Positions 28,163 through 34,888 of a DNA stretch of 34,888 nt are shown in pieces. The position numbers and the translations under genes are program-made. Within the stretch, counting starts at the first letter, position 1. Each line of letters begins with the position of its first letter. The DNA comes from Butyrivibrio sp. (lineage in GTDB: Bacteria; Bacillota; Clostridia; Lachnospirales; Lachnospiraceae): contig JAFSQI010000020.1 in assembly GCA_017446685.1 (NCBI GenBank), forward strand, positions 1-34,888, given 5' to 3'. The notes beneath the pieces were generated by a model. That model ran no database searches. It was not told the DNA's origin and saw nothing but the letters and a program-made list of their open reading frames with translations.

Positions 28163-28232
28163 TATAAATCAAGAAAGGAATCCAGAGCTAAGGGAAGCGC
28201 TCGAGGATCTTGATGAGTTTTTATTCGGATAA
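28158..28232 (+). pseudogene. Probable 3' remnant of a lost gene
   Basis: Reading from the end of the inverted repeat, one frame gives VTINQER followed by NPELREALEDLDEFLFG and a TAA stop at 28230-28232. It is an acidic amphipathic tail that looks like a protein C-terminus. An in-frame stop (28152-28154) lies within the repeat arm. A hairpin follows five bases later, as expected after a real gene. No start codon or ribosome binding site is present. The parent protein is not recognised. Confidence 0.4.
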
Positions 28233-28236
28233 AAAT

Positions 28237-28279
28237 AAGCCCTACTGAGTTGCTTGCCGAAAGCATTTCAGCAGGGCTT
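28237..28279 (+). terminator. Terminator-like hairpin after the gene remnant
   Basis: AAGCCCT and CTGA pair with TCAG and AGGGCTT (one A-C mismatch), with an inner TGCTT/AAGCA stem. It is followed by the interrupted T-run TTTGATTTTG. Confidence 0.65.
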
Positions 28280-28487
28280 TGATTTTGAGTGGTAAAATGA
28301 CTGGAAGTTAAGATTAACGTTTTGTGTATGGCCCGGCATTGTTGGAAATATTACCACTATTTAAAAGAAAATTACTGCGGAGCAGAACAAAAATGATAAT
28401 TAATTCCAAGTTAATTCAAAATTAATATATATTTAATCGTTATTTTGTATCATATTAATGTGACTGTTTTTTAGATAATAAAACTAA

Positions 28488-28510
28488 ACATTGGGGTCAG
28501 ACCTCTTTAC
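28488..28510. repeat. 23-bp direct repeat, left copy
   Basis: This copy has the core TTGGGGTCAGACCTCTTTAC preceded by ACA and is identical over 23 bases to 34565-34587. It contains the small palindrome GGTC-A-GACC. Here it is followed by CCCC, extending a GGGGT...ACCCC symmetry. The two copies bracket the four-gene signalling cassette. Confidence 0.93.
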
Positions 28511-28556
28511 CCCGAAGGCGGATTTTGAGAAGACTTAAAATGTGAGGACATTTGTG

Positions 28557-29390
28557 ATGCCAAATGATACTTCAAGTAAACTGCAAAAAGGAGAACTGAG
28601 ATTTACGATACTGGGTACCCGGGGATCAATGACGACGGCTTCGCCTGAAATGATGCGTTACGGCGGCAATACGACCAGCTATCTGTTTGAGACGGAAGAA
28701 GAGGCGATTATCATTGATGCGGGCACCGGAATCATGAACCTGCCGGACGTTGGAGAAAAGCGCCTTTCGCTTATCATAACTCATACGCATATCGATCATA
28801 TCCTGGGATTGCCGATGCTTTTGGGATCTCTGAGGAATAGAAACATCACTGTGTACGGCGAGATCAGGGGAGGATATACTATACGGCAGCAGTTGGAGAG
28901 ATATCTGTCGATTCCTCTTTGGCCTGTGAGCATTGATGACTATGATGTGACAGTAGATTTTGTAAACATAGCTGAAGGTGTTAGCTTCAGTATAGGAGGT
29001 GTCAGGATTGATACAATGCCGTCCAATCATCCCGGAGGCTCTACCATTTTTAAGCTCCTGTATGGCGGCAAAGTGGTGATTGTTGCAACAGACTTTGAGC
29101 ATTCGCCGGAAGCGTCGGAAGGCCTTATATCTTTTGCCCGGGGCTCTGATATGATGCTGTACGACGCTCAGTATACTCCGGATGAGTACGAACAGTGCAG
29201 GGGCTTTGGGCATTCAACCTATGAGCAGGCTGTGATTATTCAACAGAAGGCGGATATTAAGGAGATGCTCCTGGTTCATCATGCCCCCGGTCATACGGAT
29301 GCTTTTCTGGATGACCTTCAGTGCAGGCTTGAGGCAGAGGGCTGCAAGAATATTTCTTTTGCCAGAGAGGGATTTAAGACTGTTATTTAG
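28557..29390 (+). CDS. MBL-fold metallohydrolase (cyclic-phosphodiesterase-like)
   Basis: This 277-residue cytoplasmic protein is a metallo-beta-lactamase-fold hydrolase. It begins with the block FTILGTRGSMTTASPEMMRY and GGNTTSYLFE, the version found in PhnP/RNase Z-like phosphodiesterases. The metal site THTHIDH supplies His76, His78, Asp80 and His81, and further ligands are in MPSNHPGG, ATDFEHSPE and HHAPGHTD. The substrate is not proven; next to a nucleotide cyclase a cyclic-nucleotide phosphodiesterase role is attractive but inferred. ATG 28557 is used because AGG at 28545-28547 is well spaced; the upstream in-frame GTG 28542 is unlikely. It is the first of four co-directional genes with short spacers. 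Confidence 0.82.
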   Translation: MPNDTSSKLQKGELRFTILGTRGSMTTASPEMMRYGGNTTSYLFETEEEAIIIDAGTGIMNLPDVGEKRLSLIITHTHIDHILGLPMLLGSLRNRNITVYGEIRGGYTIRQQLERYLSIPLWPVSIDDYDVTVDFVNIAEGVSFSIGGVRIDTMPSNHPGGSTIFKLLYGGKVVIVATDFEHSPEASEGLISFARGSDMMLYDAQYTPDEYEQCRGFGHSTYEQAVIIQQKADIKEMLLVHHAPGHTDAFLDDLQCRLEAEGCKNISFAREGFKTVI

Positions 29391-29410
29391 GCAATAGCGG
29401 GAGGCTTTTT

Positions 29411-30865
29411 ATGGATATTTCGACTAACTATTCCGTGGATAACCTCATTCGCATAGCGATAGCACTTTCTGCGGAAAAAGATACATCTAAAGTTCTGGAT
29501 ATGATCCTTCAGGTCGCAATGAGGATCAGTCATTGTGATGCCGGAACTGTCTATGTTGTGGAAGATGACCATCTGAACTTTCACAACTCATATACCTATG
29601 CAAAAGGTTTTTTAAACGAATTCACAGCCAAAAAGAATACCATGCCTCCGGTGCCTATCAGCAGGGAGTACGTCAGCGCCTGCGCTGTTATTGATAAAAA
29701 AGAGATCAATATTGCGGACGTTTACGCCTCGGATCAGTACGATTTTTCAGGCGCAAAAAAATACGACAAGATGAGCGGCTATAGGACCAGGTCCATGATG
29801 GTTATCCCAATGGAGAATGATCGTGGGGAAGTGATAGGCGTTCTGCAGCTTATTAATGCGCAGGATGAGTCGGGGAATATCGTTGCATTTCCGGAGAAGG
29901 ATGAGGACATAATCAAAGCCCTGGCTTCCCTGGGAGCGGTTATCCTTACTAATAGGAGGCTGTCTGAGCAGGTTTCTGAGACTCTCCACTCTCTGGTGAG
30001 GGTTATGGTAGAGGCAATTGAAACACGAAGCTCCTATAATGCCAATCACACCAAAAACATGGCTTTCTATGCAGACCGTTTTTTGACCTACATAGGTGAG
30101 AACGGCGATGAGCGAAAACTAGAAGAGGAGGAGAGGGACGCATTTCTGATGAGCGTCTGGCTTCATGACATTGGGAAACTTGTTATTCCGCTGGAAATCA
30201 TGGATAAACCAACGAGACTTGGCGCTCTGGAAGATAAGGTAAAGAACAGGGTTACGATCGCATGTCTCATGGAGGAGATAACAGGCTACAGGGAACCTGA
30301 AAGGCGCAAGGAATGCGAAGAAAAGATAAGAATAATAAAGGACGCTCTTGCCCTGATCCTGGATTCAAATACCAAAGGCTTTTTGCCTGATGAGACCATT
30401 GAAGAGCTTGAGAAAGCAGCAGAAATTGGTTGTCTTACCGAAGATGGACGGGAGGTTCCGCTTCTTGCAAAGGATGAACTTACGGCCATAACGGTTCGCA
30501 AGGGTACCCTCACGGATGAAGAGCGCAGCATCATGCAGAGTCATGTTACCTACACACTAAGGATGCTTAAAAAGATGCATTTTGAGGGCTATTACAAGAA
30601 CGTACCAAAGTGGGCGGCCGGACACCATGAATTTCTTGACGGGACAGGATACCCTGATCATCTTAAGGCCGAGGATATATCTAAAGAGGTCAGACTACTG
30701 ACAATTATTGATGTTTACGATGCCCTGACGGCGGAGGATCGTCCCTATAAGCCTCCGATGCCTCCGGAAAAAGCCTTTTCCATATTGGACAGCATGTCCG
30801 ACGAGGGCAAGATTGACAAAAAAATCCTGCAGATGTTTAAGGATAGCGGCGCGTGGAAGAAGTAA
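29411..30865 (+). CDS. GAF domain plus HD-GYP phosphodiesterase-like protein
   Basis: This 484-residue soluble protein has an N-terminal GAF domain (about 10-180). It is of the type seen in phosphodiesterases and cyclases (ISHCDAGTVYVVEDDHL, INIADVYASD, SMMVIPMENDRGEVIGVLQL). The end INAQ...F...DED loosely follows the NKxnFxnDE signature. The HD-GYP domain has His252-Asp253 in HDIGK, His378, His405-His406 in GHHEFLDGTGYP (GTGYP at 411-415) and VDVYDA-like IIDVYDALTAEDRPYK. HD-GYP proteins cleave cyclic dinucleotides such as c-di-GMP. The gap between HDIGK and the next metal His is about 126 residues instead of roughly 30, so there is an unusual helical insertion. GGGAGG serves ATG 29411. Confidence 0.88.
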   Translation: MDISTNYSVDNLIRIAIALSAEKDTSKVLDMILQVAMRISHCDAGTVYVVEDDHLNFHNSYTYAKGFLNEFTAKKNTMPPVPISREYVSACAVIDKKEINIADVYASDQYDFSGAKKYDKMSGYRTRSMMVIPMENDRGEVIGVLQLINAQDESGNIVAFPEKDEDIIKALASLGAVILTNRRLSEQVSETLHSLVRVMVEAIETRSSYNANHTKNMAFYADRFLTYIGENGDERKLEEEERDAFLMSVWLHDIGKLVIPLEIMDKPTRLGALEDKVKNRVTIACLMEEITGYREPERRKECEEKIRIIKDALALILDSNTKGFLPDETIEELEKAAEIGCLTEDGREVPLLAKDELTAITVRKGTLTDEERSIMQSHVTYTLRMLKKMHFEGYYKNVPKWAAGHHEFLDGTGYPDHLKAEDISKEVRLLTIIDVYDALTAEDRPYKPPMPPEKAFSILDSMSDEGKIDKKILQMFKDSGAWKK

Positions 30866-30886
30866 TACAGCAAAGGAGATTGTGGA

Positions 30887-32509
30887 ATGGATAGTAAGAA
30901 AAAGAAAATTCTGGTTGCAGCTCTGGTGACAGCGGTTGTTATTATCGGGATTATCATAGCCGTATTCATTTCAAATAACCGCCTTACTGCCAGTACAATG
31001 AGATTTCTGAGAAGGGAAGGTATTGTCAGACTCTTTGAAAAGGAAAAAGAGAAGACGATATCTGATAATCTGCGTCTTAATGCCGGCAATATTCTTAATA
31101 CCGAGTCGGCCTCTCTTGCAGGCATTGCCCTTGATGACACTAAGATCGTCACTGTGAATGAGCTAAGCCGTGCACAGTTCGACCAGAAGGGCAAAAAACT
31201 TGATATTAACCTGACGGAAGGAAGTCTCTTTTTCGAGATCACCAAGAAGCTTGCTGCGGATGAGAGCTTTGATATCAGGACCTCCACCATGGTTGTTGGT
31301 ATCAGGGGCACTTCTGGCTACGTTTCCGTGGATGAGGACGGGCATGAAGTCGTTTACATAACTGAGGGAAGCGTTGAGATCATAGGAACCAATCCCAGAA
31401 CCAAGGAAAAGAAGACTATCACTGTTTCCGCAGGGCAGCGGGTAAAGACATATCTGTATTACGACAGGACCGTGGACAGCATAATGTTTGAGCTGGAAGA
31501 TGTCACGGAAGATGATCTGAACGAATTTATAGTTGCAAGGCTTGCTGAAAATGAGTCTTTGATCGATCTGGTCTGCTCAGCAACAGGATGGGATAAGAAA
31601 AAGATACTGGGCATAGAGGATGAAGATACCATGCTGGCTTCAGCTGAGGATGTCACTGATCAGCAGTCCTCCGGAGGTGGAGGCGGTTCGGACAGCAATC
31701 AGTCTCAAACGGGGAATGATTCATCCGCTAATACATTAGGCAGCACAACCGGAAACGCAATCGGAAGCACAACAGGAAACACAACCGGAAGCACAACCGG
31801 AAACTCAGCAAATAGTAAGAAATTAACGACTGCAGTGACCACAACAGGAGAGTCTTCCGGTGGTGTTTCTGAAAGCGCGTCCACAGCAGTATCTACTCAG
31901 AAAACCAATGCTCAGGAGGAGTATCAAAAGTTCTATGATGCTATAAAGCAGGCAGAAGCTGAGGAAGCTGAACAGGCCAGAAACAAGGGACAGGGCTCAA
32001 CCGGCAGCAGCAATAGCTTGGATAATTCCGACAGCCGGGAAGCTGATCAGCAGTCTGGGGATAATGCCTCTGCCGCAGATGATGGTAATACGGATAGCGG
32101 AACCGGAGGTAACGAAGGCAACGCTGACACCAACACAGACACCAACACAGATACCAATGCAGACACCAACACAGACACCAACACAGATACCAACACCGAC
32201 ACCAATACGGATACAAACACAGATACAAACACAGATACCAACACCGACACCAACACCAACACCAACACAGATACCAATGCAGACACCAACACAGATACCA
32301 ACACCGACACCAATACGGATACAAACACAGATACAAACACAGATACCAACACAGATATCAATACCGACACCAACACAGATACCAATACCGACACCAACAC
32401 AGATACGGACACTAATACCGATACAGATACCGGCACGGATACTGATACCGGTACCGATACAAATACAGATAGTGGAACTGAGGAATCGGCGAAATATGAC
32501 GGGCCTTAA
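30887..32509 (+). CDS. FecR-domain membrane protein with Thr-Asp-Thr-Asn repeat tail
   Basis: This 540-residue protein has one N-terminal membrane helix (about 8-28) and an extracellular FecR domain (about 60-175) with STMVVGIRGTSGYVSVDEDG and VYITEGSVEIIG. A helical segment with VARLAENESLIDLVCSATGW follows. From about residue 260 it is low-complexity: a Gly/Ser stretch, a run of TTGN-type repeats, and from about 414 to 531 a long alternation of Thr, Asp and Asn. FecR domains usually sense or relay signals at the envelope; the tail may span the cell wall. AAGGAG serves ATG 30887. The frame ends at TAA 32507-32509, but protein-like sequence continues in the same frame to 32659, so this copy may be truncated. 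Confidence 0.85.
   Translation: MDSKKKKILVAALVTAVVIIGIIIAVFISNNRLTASTMRFLRREGIVRLFEKEKEKTISDNLRLNAGNILNTESASLAGIALDDTKIVTVNELSRAQFDQKGKKLDINLTEGSLFFEITKKLAADESFDIRTSTMVVGIRGTSGYVSVDEDGHEVVYITEGSVEIIGTNPRTKEKKTITVSAGQRVKTYLYYDRTVDSIMFELEDVTEDDLNEFIVARLAENESLIDLVCSATGWDKKKILGIEDEDTMLASAEDVTDQQSSGGGGGSDSNQSQTGNDSSANTLGSTTGNAIGSTTGNTTGSTTGNSANSKKLTTAVTTTGESSGGVSESASTAVSTQKTNAQEEYQKFYDAIKQAEAEEAEQARNKGQGSTGSSNSLDNSDSREADQQSGDNASAADDGNTDSGTGGNEGNADTNTDTNTDTNADTNTDTNTDTNTDTNTDTNTDTNTDTNTDTNTNTNTDTNADTNTDTNTDTNTDTNTDTNTDTNTDINTDTNTDTNTDTNTDTDTNTDTDTGTDTDTGTDTNTDSGTEESAKYDGP
32126..32468 (+). repeat. Tandem 12-bp repeat array coding Thr-Asp-Thr-Asn
   Basis: The array is built from degenerate 12-base units of the form ACAGATACCAAC/ACCGACACCAAC, each coding four residues. 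A longer period is also visible: the block ATACCAATGCAGACACCAAC occurs at 32151-32170 and exactly 120 bases later at 32271-32290. The second copy then lacks about one 12-base unit, a sign of slippage or segmental duplication. Confidence 0.92.
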
Positions 32510-32659
32510 TATAACGCTGATTCTGCAGCTAATGATGGTTGGGAAGATTTGGGACGAGGCCTGTATGAAAATGATGGTTACTATTATAATTCTGAGTCGG
32601 GAAAATATACTGATTCCAATGGCAACGTATATGATTCTGACGGAAACCTGAAAACATGA
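32510..32659 (+). other. In-frame continuation of the FecR gene beyond its TAA
   Basis: Directly after the TAA the same frame runs 49 codons to TGA 32657-32659. It codes YNADSAANDGWEDLGRGLYE followed by NDGYYYNSESGKYTDSNGN and a short tail. The Tyr/Asn/Asp/Gly-rich, near-repetitive content is like a cell-surface protein end, and there is no start codon or ribosome binding site of its own. With this extension the gap to the cyclase gene is 39 bases, in line with the 20-21 base gaps elsewhere in the cassette; without it the gap is 189. Confidence 0.6.
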
Positions 32660-32698
32660 TGGAATGGATATAATCATTCACTTTTCCCAGCGAGGATA

Positions 32699-34522
32699 AT
32701 GCCATTGGTAAAAAAAACCTATCAGAAAGCCCTGATAATTCTTGCTATAGCACTTCTTTATACGCTGGCAGCTTATCTGGGAACGTTTAACAGAATAGAC
32801 AAGTGGATGCAGGATTCTGTGTTCCAGAGAACCAGGGCGGTTTCCGGGGATGTGGTAGTGATAGGTATAGATGACGAGTCCCTTGAGGAACTTGGGGCTT
32901 ATAATACCTGGGACCGCAACAACATGGCAGATGCACTGCGGCAACTGGCGGCTGACCCAGACAACATGCCTGCAGTGGTTGCCATAGACACCCTGTATAC
33001 CGGCACCACAAGCCGGGAGGCGGATGATAATCTGGTAAATGCCGTAAAGAACCTTCCAAAAGTTATTACGGCATCCACCGGCGTGTTTGGCTCGGAGTAT
33101 GTTCAAAACGAAACCGGTTCTTTTGACCTTCTTGAGCACAGCGTCGTCAATTACGAAGAGCCCTTTGATGAGCTGAAGAATGCTTCCGTCCAAGGGCATA
33201 TCAATGCCATGTATGATCTGGACGGAGTGCTCCGCCATGCGCTTCTGTATTTTGATGTCAAAAGAGATGACGGCAGCACCGGGAGGGTATATTCCATGGC
33301 CTACGAGGCTACAAGGGCCTTTCTGGATCAGAAGGGAGAGACTGTCGTTCCTCCCGATACCGATGAAAGAGGCCACTATTATCTCTCATATTCCGCTGTG
33401 CCGGGAACCTATGATGACGGCTATAACATTGCGGATCTGATAAAGGGAGAAGTCCCTGCGGATTATTATGCCGGGAAGATCGTGCTGATAGGCCCCTATT
33501 CTGTGGGGCTTCAGGACGAGTATTTTACCACCATTGACAGGGCTAAGAAGATGTATGGCGTGGAGGTTCAGGCCAACGCCATCGAGGCGTTCCTTAGGCA
33601 GGATTACAAATCGGAGATGTCCGAAGTCTTGCAGGCGCTTATTGTTCTGATACTGTGCGCTACATTGTTATCTCTTTTCCTGAGGATAAAACTTGTGCCC
33701 GGCGGCATCATCATGACGGCGATAGGAGTTGCTACGCTGGTCGGGGCATATCTGTTCTATGAAGGTGGTATCATTGCCCATCCGCTGTGGTTTCCCATCG
33801 GATCACTGGTCATGTACGTTGTGGCTGTGGGTATAAAGTATTTCCGCTCCGCCATTGAGAAGATGAAGATCACCAGAACCTTTGAGCGATATGTGGCACC
33901 GGAGATCGTTGATGAGATTCTGAAAACCGGCGTTGACAATTTGGCCCTTGGGGGCAGAACCTGTGATATTGCTGTTTTGTTCGTTGACGTAAGAGGGTTT
34001 ACGACCATGTCGGAGAACATGTCTCCTGAAACGGTGGTTCACGTTCTTAATAAATATCTGACCATGGCCAGCGACTGTGTCGAGAGAAATAAAGGCACCC
34101 TGGATAAATTCGTGGGTGACGCCATGATGGCTTTCTGGGGAGCGCCGCTTCCCCAAGAGGATGCAGTATATAATGCGGTAAAAACAGCCATGGAGATAAT
34201 TGAGGGGGCGGCAAGGGTTTCAGATGAACTGCAAGAAGAGATAGGTCAGGACCTCAAGGTGGGAATCGGTGTAAACTATGGGCCAGCCGTAGTAGGAAAT
34301 ATGGGAGCTGAGAAGCATATGGATTATACTGCCATCGGTGATACGGTCAATACGGCTTCCAGACTGGAGTCCAATGCTCCGGGCGGAACCCTGTATATAA
34401 GCCGCTCTGTGGCAGACCATCTGGAGGGCCGCATTCGATACACCTCTCTTGGGGCAAGCATAAAACTCAAGGGAAAAGCTGAGGGCTTTGAGGTTCTTAA
34501 AGTCGAGGAACTACTGGACTGA
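32699..34522 (+). CDS. CHASE2-domain class III nucleotide cyclase (probable adenylate cyclase)
   Basis: This 607-residue membrane receptor cyclase has an N-terminal helix (about 9-25), a large extracellular CHASE2 domain (about 30-300; VVVIGIDDESLEELGAYNTW, IVLIGPYSVGLQDEYFTTID, YGVEVQANAIEAFL) and three membrane helices (about 308-384). A C-terminal class III cyclase domain follows. Catalytic residues are intact: metal Asp430 (LFVDVRGFT) and Asp474 (KFVGDAMMAF), Asn551 and Arg555 (NTASRLE). Purine-specifying positions are Lys470 and Thr544 (DYTAIGDTVN), the pair typical of bacterial ATP-using class IIIb enzymes, so cAMP is the predicted product. GAGG at 32692-32695 is close to ATG 32699, a short spacing. 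It ends the cassette. Confidence 0.93.
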   Translation: MPLVKKTYQKALIILAIALLYTLAAYLGTFNRIDKWMQDSVFQRTRAVSGDVVVIGIDDESLEELGAYNTWDRNNMADALRQLAADPDNMPAVVAIDTLYTGTTSREADDNLVNAVKNLPKVITASTGVFGSEYVQNETGSFDLLEHSVVNYEEPFDELKNASVQGHINAMYDLDGVLRHALLYFDVKRDDGSTGRVYSMAYEATRAFLDQKGETVVPPDTDERGHYYLSYSAVPGTYDDGYNIADLIKGEVPADYYAGKIVLIGPYSVGLQDEYFTTIDRAKKMYGVEVQANAIEAFLRQDYKSEMSEVLQALIVLILCATLLSLFLRIKLVPGGIIMTAIGVATLVGAYLFYEGGIIAHPLWFPIGSLVMYVVAVGIKYFRSAIEKMKITRTFERYVAPEIVDEILKTGVDNLALGGRTCDIAVLFVDVRGFTTMSENMSPETVVHVLNKYLTMASDCVERNKGTLDKFVGDAMMAFWGAPLPQEDAVYNAVKTAMEIIEGAARVSDELQEEIGQDLKVGIGVNYGPAVVGNMGAEKHMDYTAIGDTVNTASRLESNAPGGTLYISRSVADHLEGRIRYTSLGASIKLKGKAEGFEVLKVEELLD

Positions 34523-34564
34523 TATTCGGGATATGCTGTTGTCGGGTCAGAAGCCAATATACGC

Positions 34565-34587
34565 ACATTGGGGTCAGACCTCTTTAC
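34565..34587. repeat. 23-bp direct repeat, right copy
   Basis: This is an exact second copy of the 23 bases at 28488-28510, in the same orientation, 42 bases after the cyclase stop. The distance between copies is 6077 bases. The flanking bases on both sides differ from the left copy. Confidence 0.93.
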
Positions 34588-34888
34588 GATCCACACATGT
34601 TTATAGCCTTTCGGAATTTAAGGGCATTTAGACCATAAATAGAGGGGATTTGCCCCTAATGAACATTGTAAAGTAAATACTATCCCCAAAAGAAAGATGA
34701 AAGCGATGATTCTGTTATATATATCCTAAAAAAGTAATAAAAAAAGTTATATAAAAAAATAAAAAAAGTTGTGTCAAGCATTTTTGAAAATGTCTCAAAA
34801 AATCTTTAACATTAGCCCTGGCTTTTATGCCGGGGCTTTGCTTTATCATAGCCTTAACTCCGCTCTTGGAGACTGCCCTTTGAGAAGG
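34588..34888. other. A/T-rich intergenic end of the window
   Basis: No gene is visible here. There is a weak hairpin at 34643-34657 (AGGGG with CCCCT), a very A-rich stretch at 34726-34800 and a terminator-like hairpin at 34814-34843. The last 40 bases do not show a recognisable coding start. Confidence 0.6.
34814..34843 (+). terminator. Terminator-like hairpin near the window end
   Basis: AGCCCTGGC pairs with GCCGGGGCT (one wobble) around a six-base loop, followed by the weak T-run TTGCTTT. It might end transcription from the cassette or from a gene on the far side. Confidence 0.6.

Follow-up and report, generated by a model that had tools for sequence, protein, structure and literature searches.

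Contig JAFSQI010000020.1 of the Butyrivibrio sp. assembly GCA_017446685.1, analysed here over its full 34,888 nucleotides (the window), carries towards its right end a segment of four co-directional genes bracketed by an identical 23-bp sequence. On balance, we favour the reading that this segment is a horizontally acquired operon encoding a self-contained cyclic AMP (cAMP) module wired to cyclic di-GMP (c-di-GMP). This reading is built on sequence comparison and predicted structures, and the activities given for all four proteins are predicted ones. A FecR-domain surface protein and the extracellular CHASE2 domain of a cyclase would register a condition of the envelope or wall, and the cyclase, whose domains and catalytic residues are in place, would make cAMP. 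Then, as kinship and motifs suggest, cAMP would bind the GAF domain of a third protein and alter the hydrolysis of c-di-GMP, or of a related cyclic dinucleotide, by its HD-GYP domain. Finally, a class II phosphodiesterase (PDE) with the metallo-beta-lactamase (MBL) fold and its metal ligands would hydrolyse cAMP and reset the module. As for its origin, the segment would have come from a higher-G+C genome and now lies amid mobile-element remnants, marked by the 23-bp direct repeat.

If correct, cAMP would be written, erased and read by the products of one transferable operon, and the reader would act directly on c-di-GMP. Gut Clostridia would then have a compact relay between second messengers that works without a transcription factor, and what cAMP does in these bacteria would become a question for single-protein assays. 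Attachment to plant fibre and motility on it could be among the processes affected.

The window is the whole of contig C104 of the source assembly, designated G000 (3.24 Mb, 137 contigs, 88.75% complete). The other G codes refer to the genomes compared, with a single representative per species, L codes to extracted loci and C codes to contigs. The genus sample comprised 79 genomes, of which 37 were covered by the cyclase search. The features of the segment and of its flanks are listed in Table 1. All four genes lie on the same strand, with intergenic gaps of 20, 21 and 189 bases, and by gap size and shared strand they are a predicted operon. The left repeat copy is separated from the GTG of the first gene by 31 bases, and the stop of the last gene from the right copy by 42 bases.

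Table 1. Segment bounded by the 23-bp direct repeat and its flanking elements, with positions in the window
Feature	Position	Strand	Remarks
106-bp near-palindromic element resembling a miniature inverted-repeat transposable element (MITE), left of segment	28057..28162		inverted repeat I2, 23-nt arms 96% complementary; partial copies (~70 bp, 88-100%) in G012, G014 and G008
IS1634-family insertion sequence, right-hand remnant	28163..28318	+	DNA identity of 97% to G012 and 99% to G065
Left 23-bp direct repeat	28488..28510	+	exact pair, core unique in assembly
MBL-fold phosphodiesterase gene, candidate cAMP eraser	28542..29390	+	GTG start, ATG at 28557; PF12706 E 5.8e-17
GAF-HD-GYP gene, candidate cAMP-controlled cyclic-dinucleotide phosphodiesterase	29411..30865	+	Pfam GAF + HD_5; HD-GYP motifs
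FecR-domain surface protein gene	30887..32509	+	PF04773 E 1.6e-11 in N-terminal 258 aa
CHASE2 class III adenylate cyclase gene, candidate cAMP writer	32699..34522	+	PF05226 E 3.2e-39; PF00211 E 4.1e-27
Right 23-bp direct repeat	34565..34587	+	exact pair, core unique in assembly
Truncated end of another dispersed repeat	34603..34734		96-97% identical in G011 (2 places), G020 and G008; likeness there continues past the end of the window copy
Multicopy repeat, contig ends within	34726..34888		four other G000 contigs (C102, C117, C46, C71) carry 94-99% identical stretches at or close to their ends

The composition of the segment differs from that of the rest of the contig. G+C content between the repeats is 0.473 vs. 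0.381 for positions 1-28487, and six lines counted by hand in an earlier, sequence-only reading of this DNA all proved right (0.55, 0.517, 0.517 and 0.40 inside; 0.25 and 0.417 outside). The G+C content at third codon positions (GC3) of the four cassette genes is 0.487-0.545, while the 17 other open reading frames (ORFs) of at least 200 amino acids in the window have a mean of 0.324 and a maximum of 0.376. A background of 91 ORFs of at least 200 amino acids, taken from nine other stretches of the assembly (138.6 kb), gave a mean of 0.325 (sd 0.035) and a maximum of 0.417. None of the 91 reaches the lowest cassette value, and the cassette lies 4.6 to 6.3 sd above this genome sample. An 80%-identical copy in G004 has a GC3 of just 0.33-0.40, which means that a high GC3 is not intrinsic to the cassette genes. 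Concerning G006 and G022, the cyclase, FecR and GAF-HD-GYP regions measured have a GC3 of 0.53-0.56, the whole ORFs of the FecR region being lower (0.45-0.46), and the flanks around these copies vary from 0.28 to 0.69. The simplest source of the segment, we infer, would be a donor of higher G+C content belonging to the genus or close to it.

Mobile-element remnants flank the segment on both sides and share 96-99% identity with DNA of congeneric species. To the left of the repeat lie the palindromic element, the IS1634-type end and then 169 bases of AT-rich DNA; to the right, 15 bases are followed by the truncated repeat end and the multicopy repeat, for a total of 301 bp to the contig end. With regard to a composite transposon, which would have one IS at both ends, the left remnant is of IS1634 type and those in the 301 bp on the right match different repeats. 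In G012, the DNA matching the left remnant sits downstream of an IS1634 transposase (NF033559, 220.8 bits for a cut-off of 100). The remnant is 97-99% identical to G012 and G065 DNA, while the cls protein of G065 is just 76% identical. Inside the segment, no recombinase or transposase was found in the ORF list or by Pfam scan; the earlier statement that no transposase is present thus holds for the segment and fails for its flanks. The multicopy repeat probably belongs to the margin of an element that interrupts the assembly, and this would explain why the contig stops there.

Such an ending raises the question of an assembly chimera, in which the DNA of another organism would have been joined at the shared 23-mer. 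The window is indeed the whole contig of a fragmented and incomplete assembly, its right flank is short and ends in a multicopy repeat, and composition shifts at the repeats. Even so, a chimera would require two joins at one short word, and for the inside genes as for the flank repeats, the nearest relatives detected belong to the same genus, which makes this explanation very unlikely.

From its composition, borders and flanks, the segment is very probably foreign and horizontally acquired. Several observations pull the other way or bring no support. Comparison of the two flanks of the window with 29 other cls loci (1.5-kb flanks) gave only short weak matches beyond the cls end, and a search with the joined flanks in the 79 genus genomes returned mobile-repeat pieces and the 23-mer of G075; in neither set was an empty site found. 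The scan for promoters and terminators was uninformative, with 10 promoter-like sites vs. 11.9 expected and none on the + strand directly before the first gene. Also, cyclase identity approximately follows species distance, with 80, 70, 67 and 58% in G004, G006, G022 and G002, respectively, vs. 90, 86, 87 and 87% for scpA, and with 44-47% vs. 71-80% in seven others.

This last pattern is as expected of a mainly vertical history with losses, in which the G+C step and the repeat would reflect a local rearrangement and not an arrival from another species. A clear cyclase relative (E <= 1e-80, counted from the search table) is present in 12 of the 37 genus genomes and in 6 of the 24 genomes examined from other orders, and loss can produce the patchiness seen within the genus. 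Against vertical descent stand the GC3 excess of the cassette and the low GC3 of the G004 copy, and none of 15 other window genes used as queries matched the 20-kb stretch around that copy. We consider this alternative unlikely. The cassette had been called portable, which its composition, the flanking mobile-element debris and its patchy presence sustain and the missing empty site does not. The same genes at the same locus in all close relatives, with matching codon usage, were not found either. Plasmid records gave no match by megablast, and distant cyclases occur in 11 phage records, all with a query coverage below 80%.

The gene identities assigned in the sequence-only reading were right for all four proteins: PF12706 for the MBL protein, GAF and HD_5 for the second, PF04773 for the third once its tail was removed, and CHASE2 and Guanylate_cyc for the cyclase. 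The broader proposal of a bounded, compositionally foreign cyclic-nucleotide cassette, with a writer, an eraser, a cytoplasmic sensor and envelope sensors, is likewise supported. In the cyclase, D430, D474, K470, T544, N551 and R555 are conserved in all 81 sequences compared, i.e. that of the window and those of the 80 kept loci, which are the best 80 of 343 related cyclase loci from a scan of species genomes, many of them cut by contig ends. We take these positions to be the two metal-binding Asp, the Lys/Thr specificity pair and the transition-state Asn and Arg, and the K470/T544 pair presumably designates an adenylate rather than a guanylate cyclase. With 343 such loci, the wider lineage is not naive to these cyclases, contrary to the earlier view of a lineage not known for cAMP signalling. 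The cyclase domain also matches the PycC models of PADLOC (best E 1.4e-31), as would suit a Pycsar-like anti-phage system. However, these models share the general class III domain, no PADLOC hit was obtained for the other three proteins (FecR by its N-terminal part) and no PycTIR or PycTM effector was seen. A CHASE2 sensor, a FecR partner and an eraser of its own fit ordinary signalling better, so that a Pycsar-like role is highly improbable.

As for the MBL protein, the HxHxDH motif (H75, H77, D79, H80) is invariant in 30 of 30 rows, and its structural model is very good (pLDDT 95.7). YhfI and 1zkp are the top Foldseek matches, with YhfI the best, followed by RNase Z and then by PhnP-type proteins and Apyc1, yeast PDE1 appearing at row 50; a profile search placed 1zkp first and YhfI second. 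YhfI is described as strongly preferring cAMP and cGMP over cCMP and cUMP (PMC9117128), and PF12706 is the family named for atypical class II phosphodiesterases in PMC9293780. The window protein shares with YhfI, Rv1339 and Apyc1 the MBL fold, HxHxDH and PF12706 (PMC9117128, PMC9293780), and differs by an identity of only about 17% in the fold alignment and by a substrate that is predicted. Less favourably, the NCBIfam model for cyclic-nucleotide PDEs, NF041851, gave 67.4 bits for a cut-off of 400, and, ranked by E-value, RNase Z models come first among its NCBIfam matches, with scores that likewise miss the cut-offs by far. The MBL protein would therefore work like a cyclic-nucleotide PDE without being a member of that equivalog. 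Taken jointly, their domains and motifs make it likely that the cyclase is a cAMP writer and the MBL protein a cAMP eraser.

The GAF-HD-GYP protein has the motifs HDIGK and HHEFLDGTGYP, which agree with HDxGK and HHExxDGxGYP, D being replaced by N in many relatives. A profile of 25 relatives, searched against PDB chains, retrieved 24 sequences at E <= 0.001, consisting only of HD-GYP proteins and cyclic-nucleotide GAFs, namely those of PDE5, PDE2, PDE6, PDE10 and the GAF pair of a cyanobacterial adenylate cyclase, 1ykd. The best single match was the GAF-HD-GYP structure 4mcw (65.0 bits over the GAF-side stretch), the PDE5 GAF reaching 56.5 bits. With the predicted structure, Foldseek ranked 4mcw first, then 1ykd, PDE5, PDE2 and cAMP-bound Lcd1; the first 15 rows comprise 4mcw and cyclic-nucleotide GAFs, and other GAFs begin at row 16, so that the signal is a preference and not exclusive. 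In the G000 genome, 38 GGDEF matches were counted, 36 of them over the cut-off, which makes c-di-GMP a plausible target. The HD-GYP domain is probably an output that hydrolyses c-di-GMP and not a second cAMP eraser; of the two candidates for degradation put forward earlier, the MBL protein, with its YhfI-like fold, is the more likely one.

We lean slightly towards a cAMP-to-HD-GYP output through the GAF domain, and several points speak against it. The model of this protein is moderate only (pLDDT 81.6, pTM 0.61), and its top structural match is the GAF-HD-GYP structure 4mcw, ahead of the cyclic-nucleotide GAFs. Compared with NKFDE, which we take to be the signature of cyclic-nucleotide GAFs, N149 and F160 are invariant, the K position holds A, S or C, and D-E are kept only in the nearest relatives. 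One cNMP_binding gene was found in G000, which runs off its contig, and another cAMP reader could thus exist. Finally, in 33 of the 50 kept loci that have at least 4.5 kb upstream, no GAF-HD-GYP gene precedes the cyclase on its strand, both the MBL and GAF-HD-GYP genes being present somewhere in the locus in 21 of the 50; the cyclase does not, therefore, need this protein as its reader.

These points lead to an alternative in which the module comprises only a cAMP writer, the FecR-CHASE2 cyclase pair, and the MBL eraser, while a Crp-type regulator reads cAMP elsewhere and the GAF-HD-GYP protein answers another ligand. It would agree with the cNMP_binding gene and with the 27 of the 80 kept loci that have FecR and cyclase genes without MBL or GAF-HD-GYP ones, some of these being cut by contig ends. 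It is less easily reconciled with the occurrence of the GAF-HD-GYP gene in an operon with the MBL and cyclase genes in several families, with the kinship of its GAF to cyclic-nucleotide GAFs, and with the cNMP_binding gene itself, in which the Arg-Ser/Thr that we take to mark canonical cAMP pockets is absent by eye. We regard this alternative as rather unlikely and retain the relay from cAMP to c-di-GMP as the preferred reading.

The gene order of the window, MBL, GAF-HD-GYP, FecR and cyclase, recurs in G004 of the same genus (57, 78, 58 and 80% identity, respectively) and in G052 of another family, whereas G053 and G048 have MBL, GAF-HD-GYP and cyclase genes without a FecR match. Among the 80 kept loci, 13 show exactly the full order, and in 15 the cyclase stands alone. 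Lachnospiraceae bacterium AC2028 (L147), whose title does not carry the mark MAG, has the four genes in this order. Upstream of the cyclase and on the same strand, FecR is found in 43, MBL in 21, GAF-HD-GYP in 17 and all three in 11 of the 50 loci with sufficient room, and these counts indicate that FecR and the cyclase form the core, with the MBL and GAF-HD-GYP genes as a frequent extension. Nearly all kept loci are titled as Clostridia of some kind (Lachnospiraceae, Butyrivibrio, Clostridiales/Clostridia, Saccharofermentans, Ruminococcaceae/Oscillospiraceae, one Bacillota and one 'Dehalococcoidales'), and titled animal sources are mostly ruminant gut and once horse faeces. Two further arrangements were seen. 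G006 and G022 carry a second MBL relative of 45-47% identity, 3-4 kb downstream of the cyclase and on the opposite strand (L066:7689-8534, L067:4911-5813). In L172, L174, L180, L193, L196 and L198, three consecutive FecR-domain matches precede the cyclase, and MBL and GAF-HD-GYP matches are absent.

Concerning the FecR protein, the full-length sequence has no Pfam match, PF04773 appearing once the low-complexity tail is removed; the domain is found in 25 of 25 aligned homologues. The protein has an N-terminus that is hydrophobic by eye and a long tail of DTNT repeats, with 12-bp tandem repeats at 32059-32514, and its G004 counterpart has a Cys that resembles a lipobox by eye. Its best NCBIfam match is Lsa33, over the FecR region and below the cut-off (48.9 bits vs. 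420); matches to the ClfA/Sdr models were set aside as low-complexity. The scan for a partner ECF sigma gene, as in a FecI-FecR anti-sigma system, covered only the remaining three genes of the cassette and the two to its left; none was found, and all five have other Pfam domains. None of the four cassette proteins gave a TPR hit at E 0.001. After the FecR stop, 49 in-frame codons (32510-32659) are rich in Y, N, D and G, and tblastn of the tail gave nothing better than E 1.7. A broken end of the gene was considered and rejected: of the seven tails examined, two of them from one genome, five finish with GP or NP as that of the window does, and with these endings and the lack of a tblastn match the stop is taken as native.

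The nearest published gene content found is a cluster of Campylobacterota, for which PMC9239204 describes a CHASE2 adenylate cyclase grouped with a cAMP phosphodiesterase, a FecR-domain protein and a TPR protein, and infers horizontal transfer. The passages of PMC9239204 on this cluster, which belongs to another phylum, name no GAF-HD-GYP protein and mention no border repeat; the window cassette lacks the TPR protein and adds GAF-HD-GYP, which is what is new here. Tlr0485 of Thermosynechococcus, in which a GAF is joined to an HD-GYP domain, is presented in a review as a cAMP-responsive PDE (PMC8846402), and PMC5871770, where it deals with this protein, covers just its expression and disruption. 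In the account of PMC8846402, Tlr0485 is not reported in an operon with a cyclase, an eraser and a FecR protein, and the activity of the window protein is predicted only. In Bd1971 of Bdellovibrio, cAMP is described as acting directly on a c-di-GMP phosphodiesterase, through cNMP_binding and EAL domains vs. GAF and HD-GYP here (PMC6717892). By analogy with Tlr0485 or Bd1971, we slightly prefer the idea that the cassette relays cAMP to c-di-GMP and brings along a cyclase and an eraser of its own. The BiofilmReg operon of Burkholderia, according to PMC5192318, likewise has an envelope protein with a FecR domain adjacent to a CHASE2 sensor, but its output is a histidine kinase and not a cyclase. 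PMC5498481 mentions a FecR-domain gene of Sinorhizobium under a cAMP-dependent regulator, which is not used here as support. No paper on this gene set in gut Clostridia was found in the open PMC literature.

The two copies of the 23-bp repeat, ACATTGGGGTCAGACCTCTTTAC, are identical as first described, and the match ends there on both sides; an exact pair of 23-mers is expected by chance 2e-5 times in the window. Its core, GGGGTCAGACC, occurs at just these two sites in the whole G000 assembly, so the repeat is not a common sequence of this genome. The 16-base right part, with up to 3 mismatches, is not enriched (20 matches vs. 24 for the control, two exact included). With T or C allowed at position 17 and up to 3 mismatches, the 23-mer was found in 3 of the 79 genus genomes: the source genome, G075, whose copy is identical apart from one position (C for T) and is the sole other one with fewer than 3 mismatches, and G071, with 3 mismatches, an estimated chance level. 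When shortened to 22 bases and with 2 mismatches allowed, the sequence matched 1 of 392 genomes of the order, the source genome (G075 being outside that sample), and a 21-base version had no match in viral contigs. In the kept loci with an upstream partner and enough flank, a search for exact border pairs no more than 1 kb from the cassette ends gave a single pair of at least 13 bp (13 bp, L138).

The G075 copy (G075:C46, L114:440-4554) starts 12 bases past the stop of a ThsB gene (PADLOC, E 5.1e-74), which adjoins ThsA (E 2.6e-189) in a Thoeris operon, and continues in frame into an IS1634 transposase that lacks roughly its first (5') half. This operon has an IS1634-type end on its left (155-310) and the near-identical 23-bp copy on its right. 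In both known settings, an operon of a kind typical for accessory DNA has the sequence directly after its last gene, with IS1634 remnants nearby, although two cases are too few for a rule. One could imagine the 23-bp element, a G-rich hairpin followed by TTTAC, as the border mark of a transposase-less cargo system of Butyrivibrio-type bacteria in which entire operons would be mobilised in trans, a single-strand (HUH-type) enzyme being a possible agent, with the G000 relay and the G075 Thoeris operon as two cargoes; we give this little credence. Folded as single-stranded DNA, the G075 copy is weak (-4.3 kcal/mol, 11 of 200 shuffles being as good), and the window copy does not stand out from its shuffles, 104 of 200 being as good. 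This speaks against recognition of the window copies as hairpins by an enzyme.

The likeness of the repeat core to REP/RAYT-linked sequences, suggested in the sequence-only reading, was not borne out. None of 22 Y1_Tnp loci, from seven of the nine genus genomes searched and several of them cut by contig ends, has the 9-base core GGTCAGACC or GGTCTGACC within flanks of up to 1.5 kb. The 11-base core alone is present in 20 of 61 genus genomes, mostly in one or two copies, and a reversed control behaves similarly except in G082. There, 35 copies of GGGGTCAGACC are spread across many contigs (L041-L056) vs. none for the reversed control, and eight inspected core pairs are MITE-like elements of ~120 bp with the palindrome GGGGTCAGACCCC at each end. 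Equating these elements with the window repeat was rejected, since the sequence outside the core differs. In L210, L214 and L220, longer Y1 transposases (252-285 aa, RAYT-like by length) are flanked on both sides by a different repeat, GGGGACGG and CCGTCCCC.

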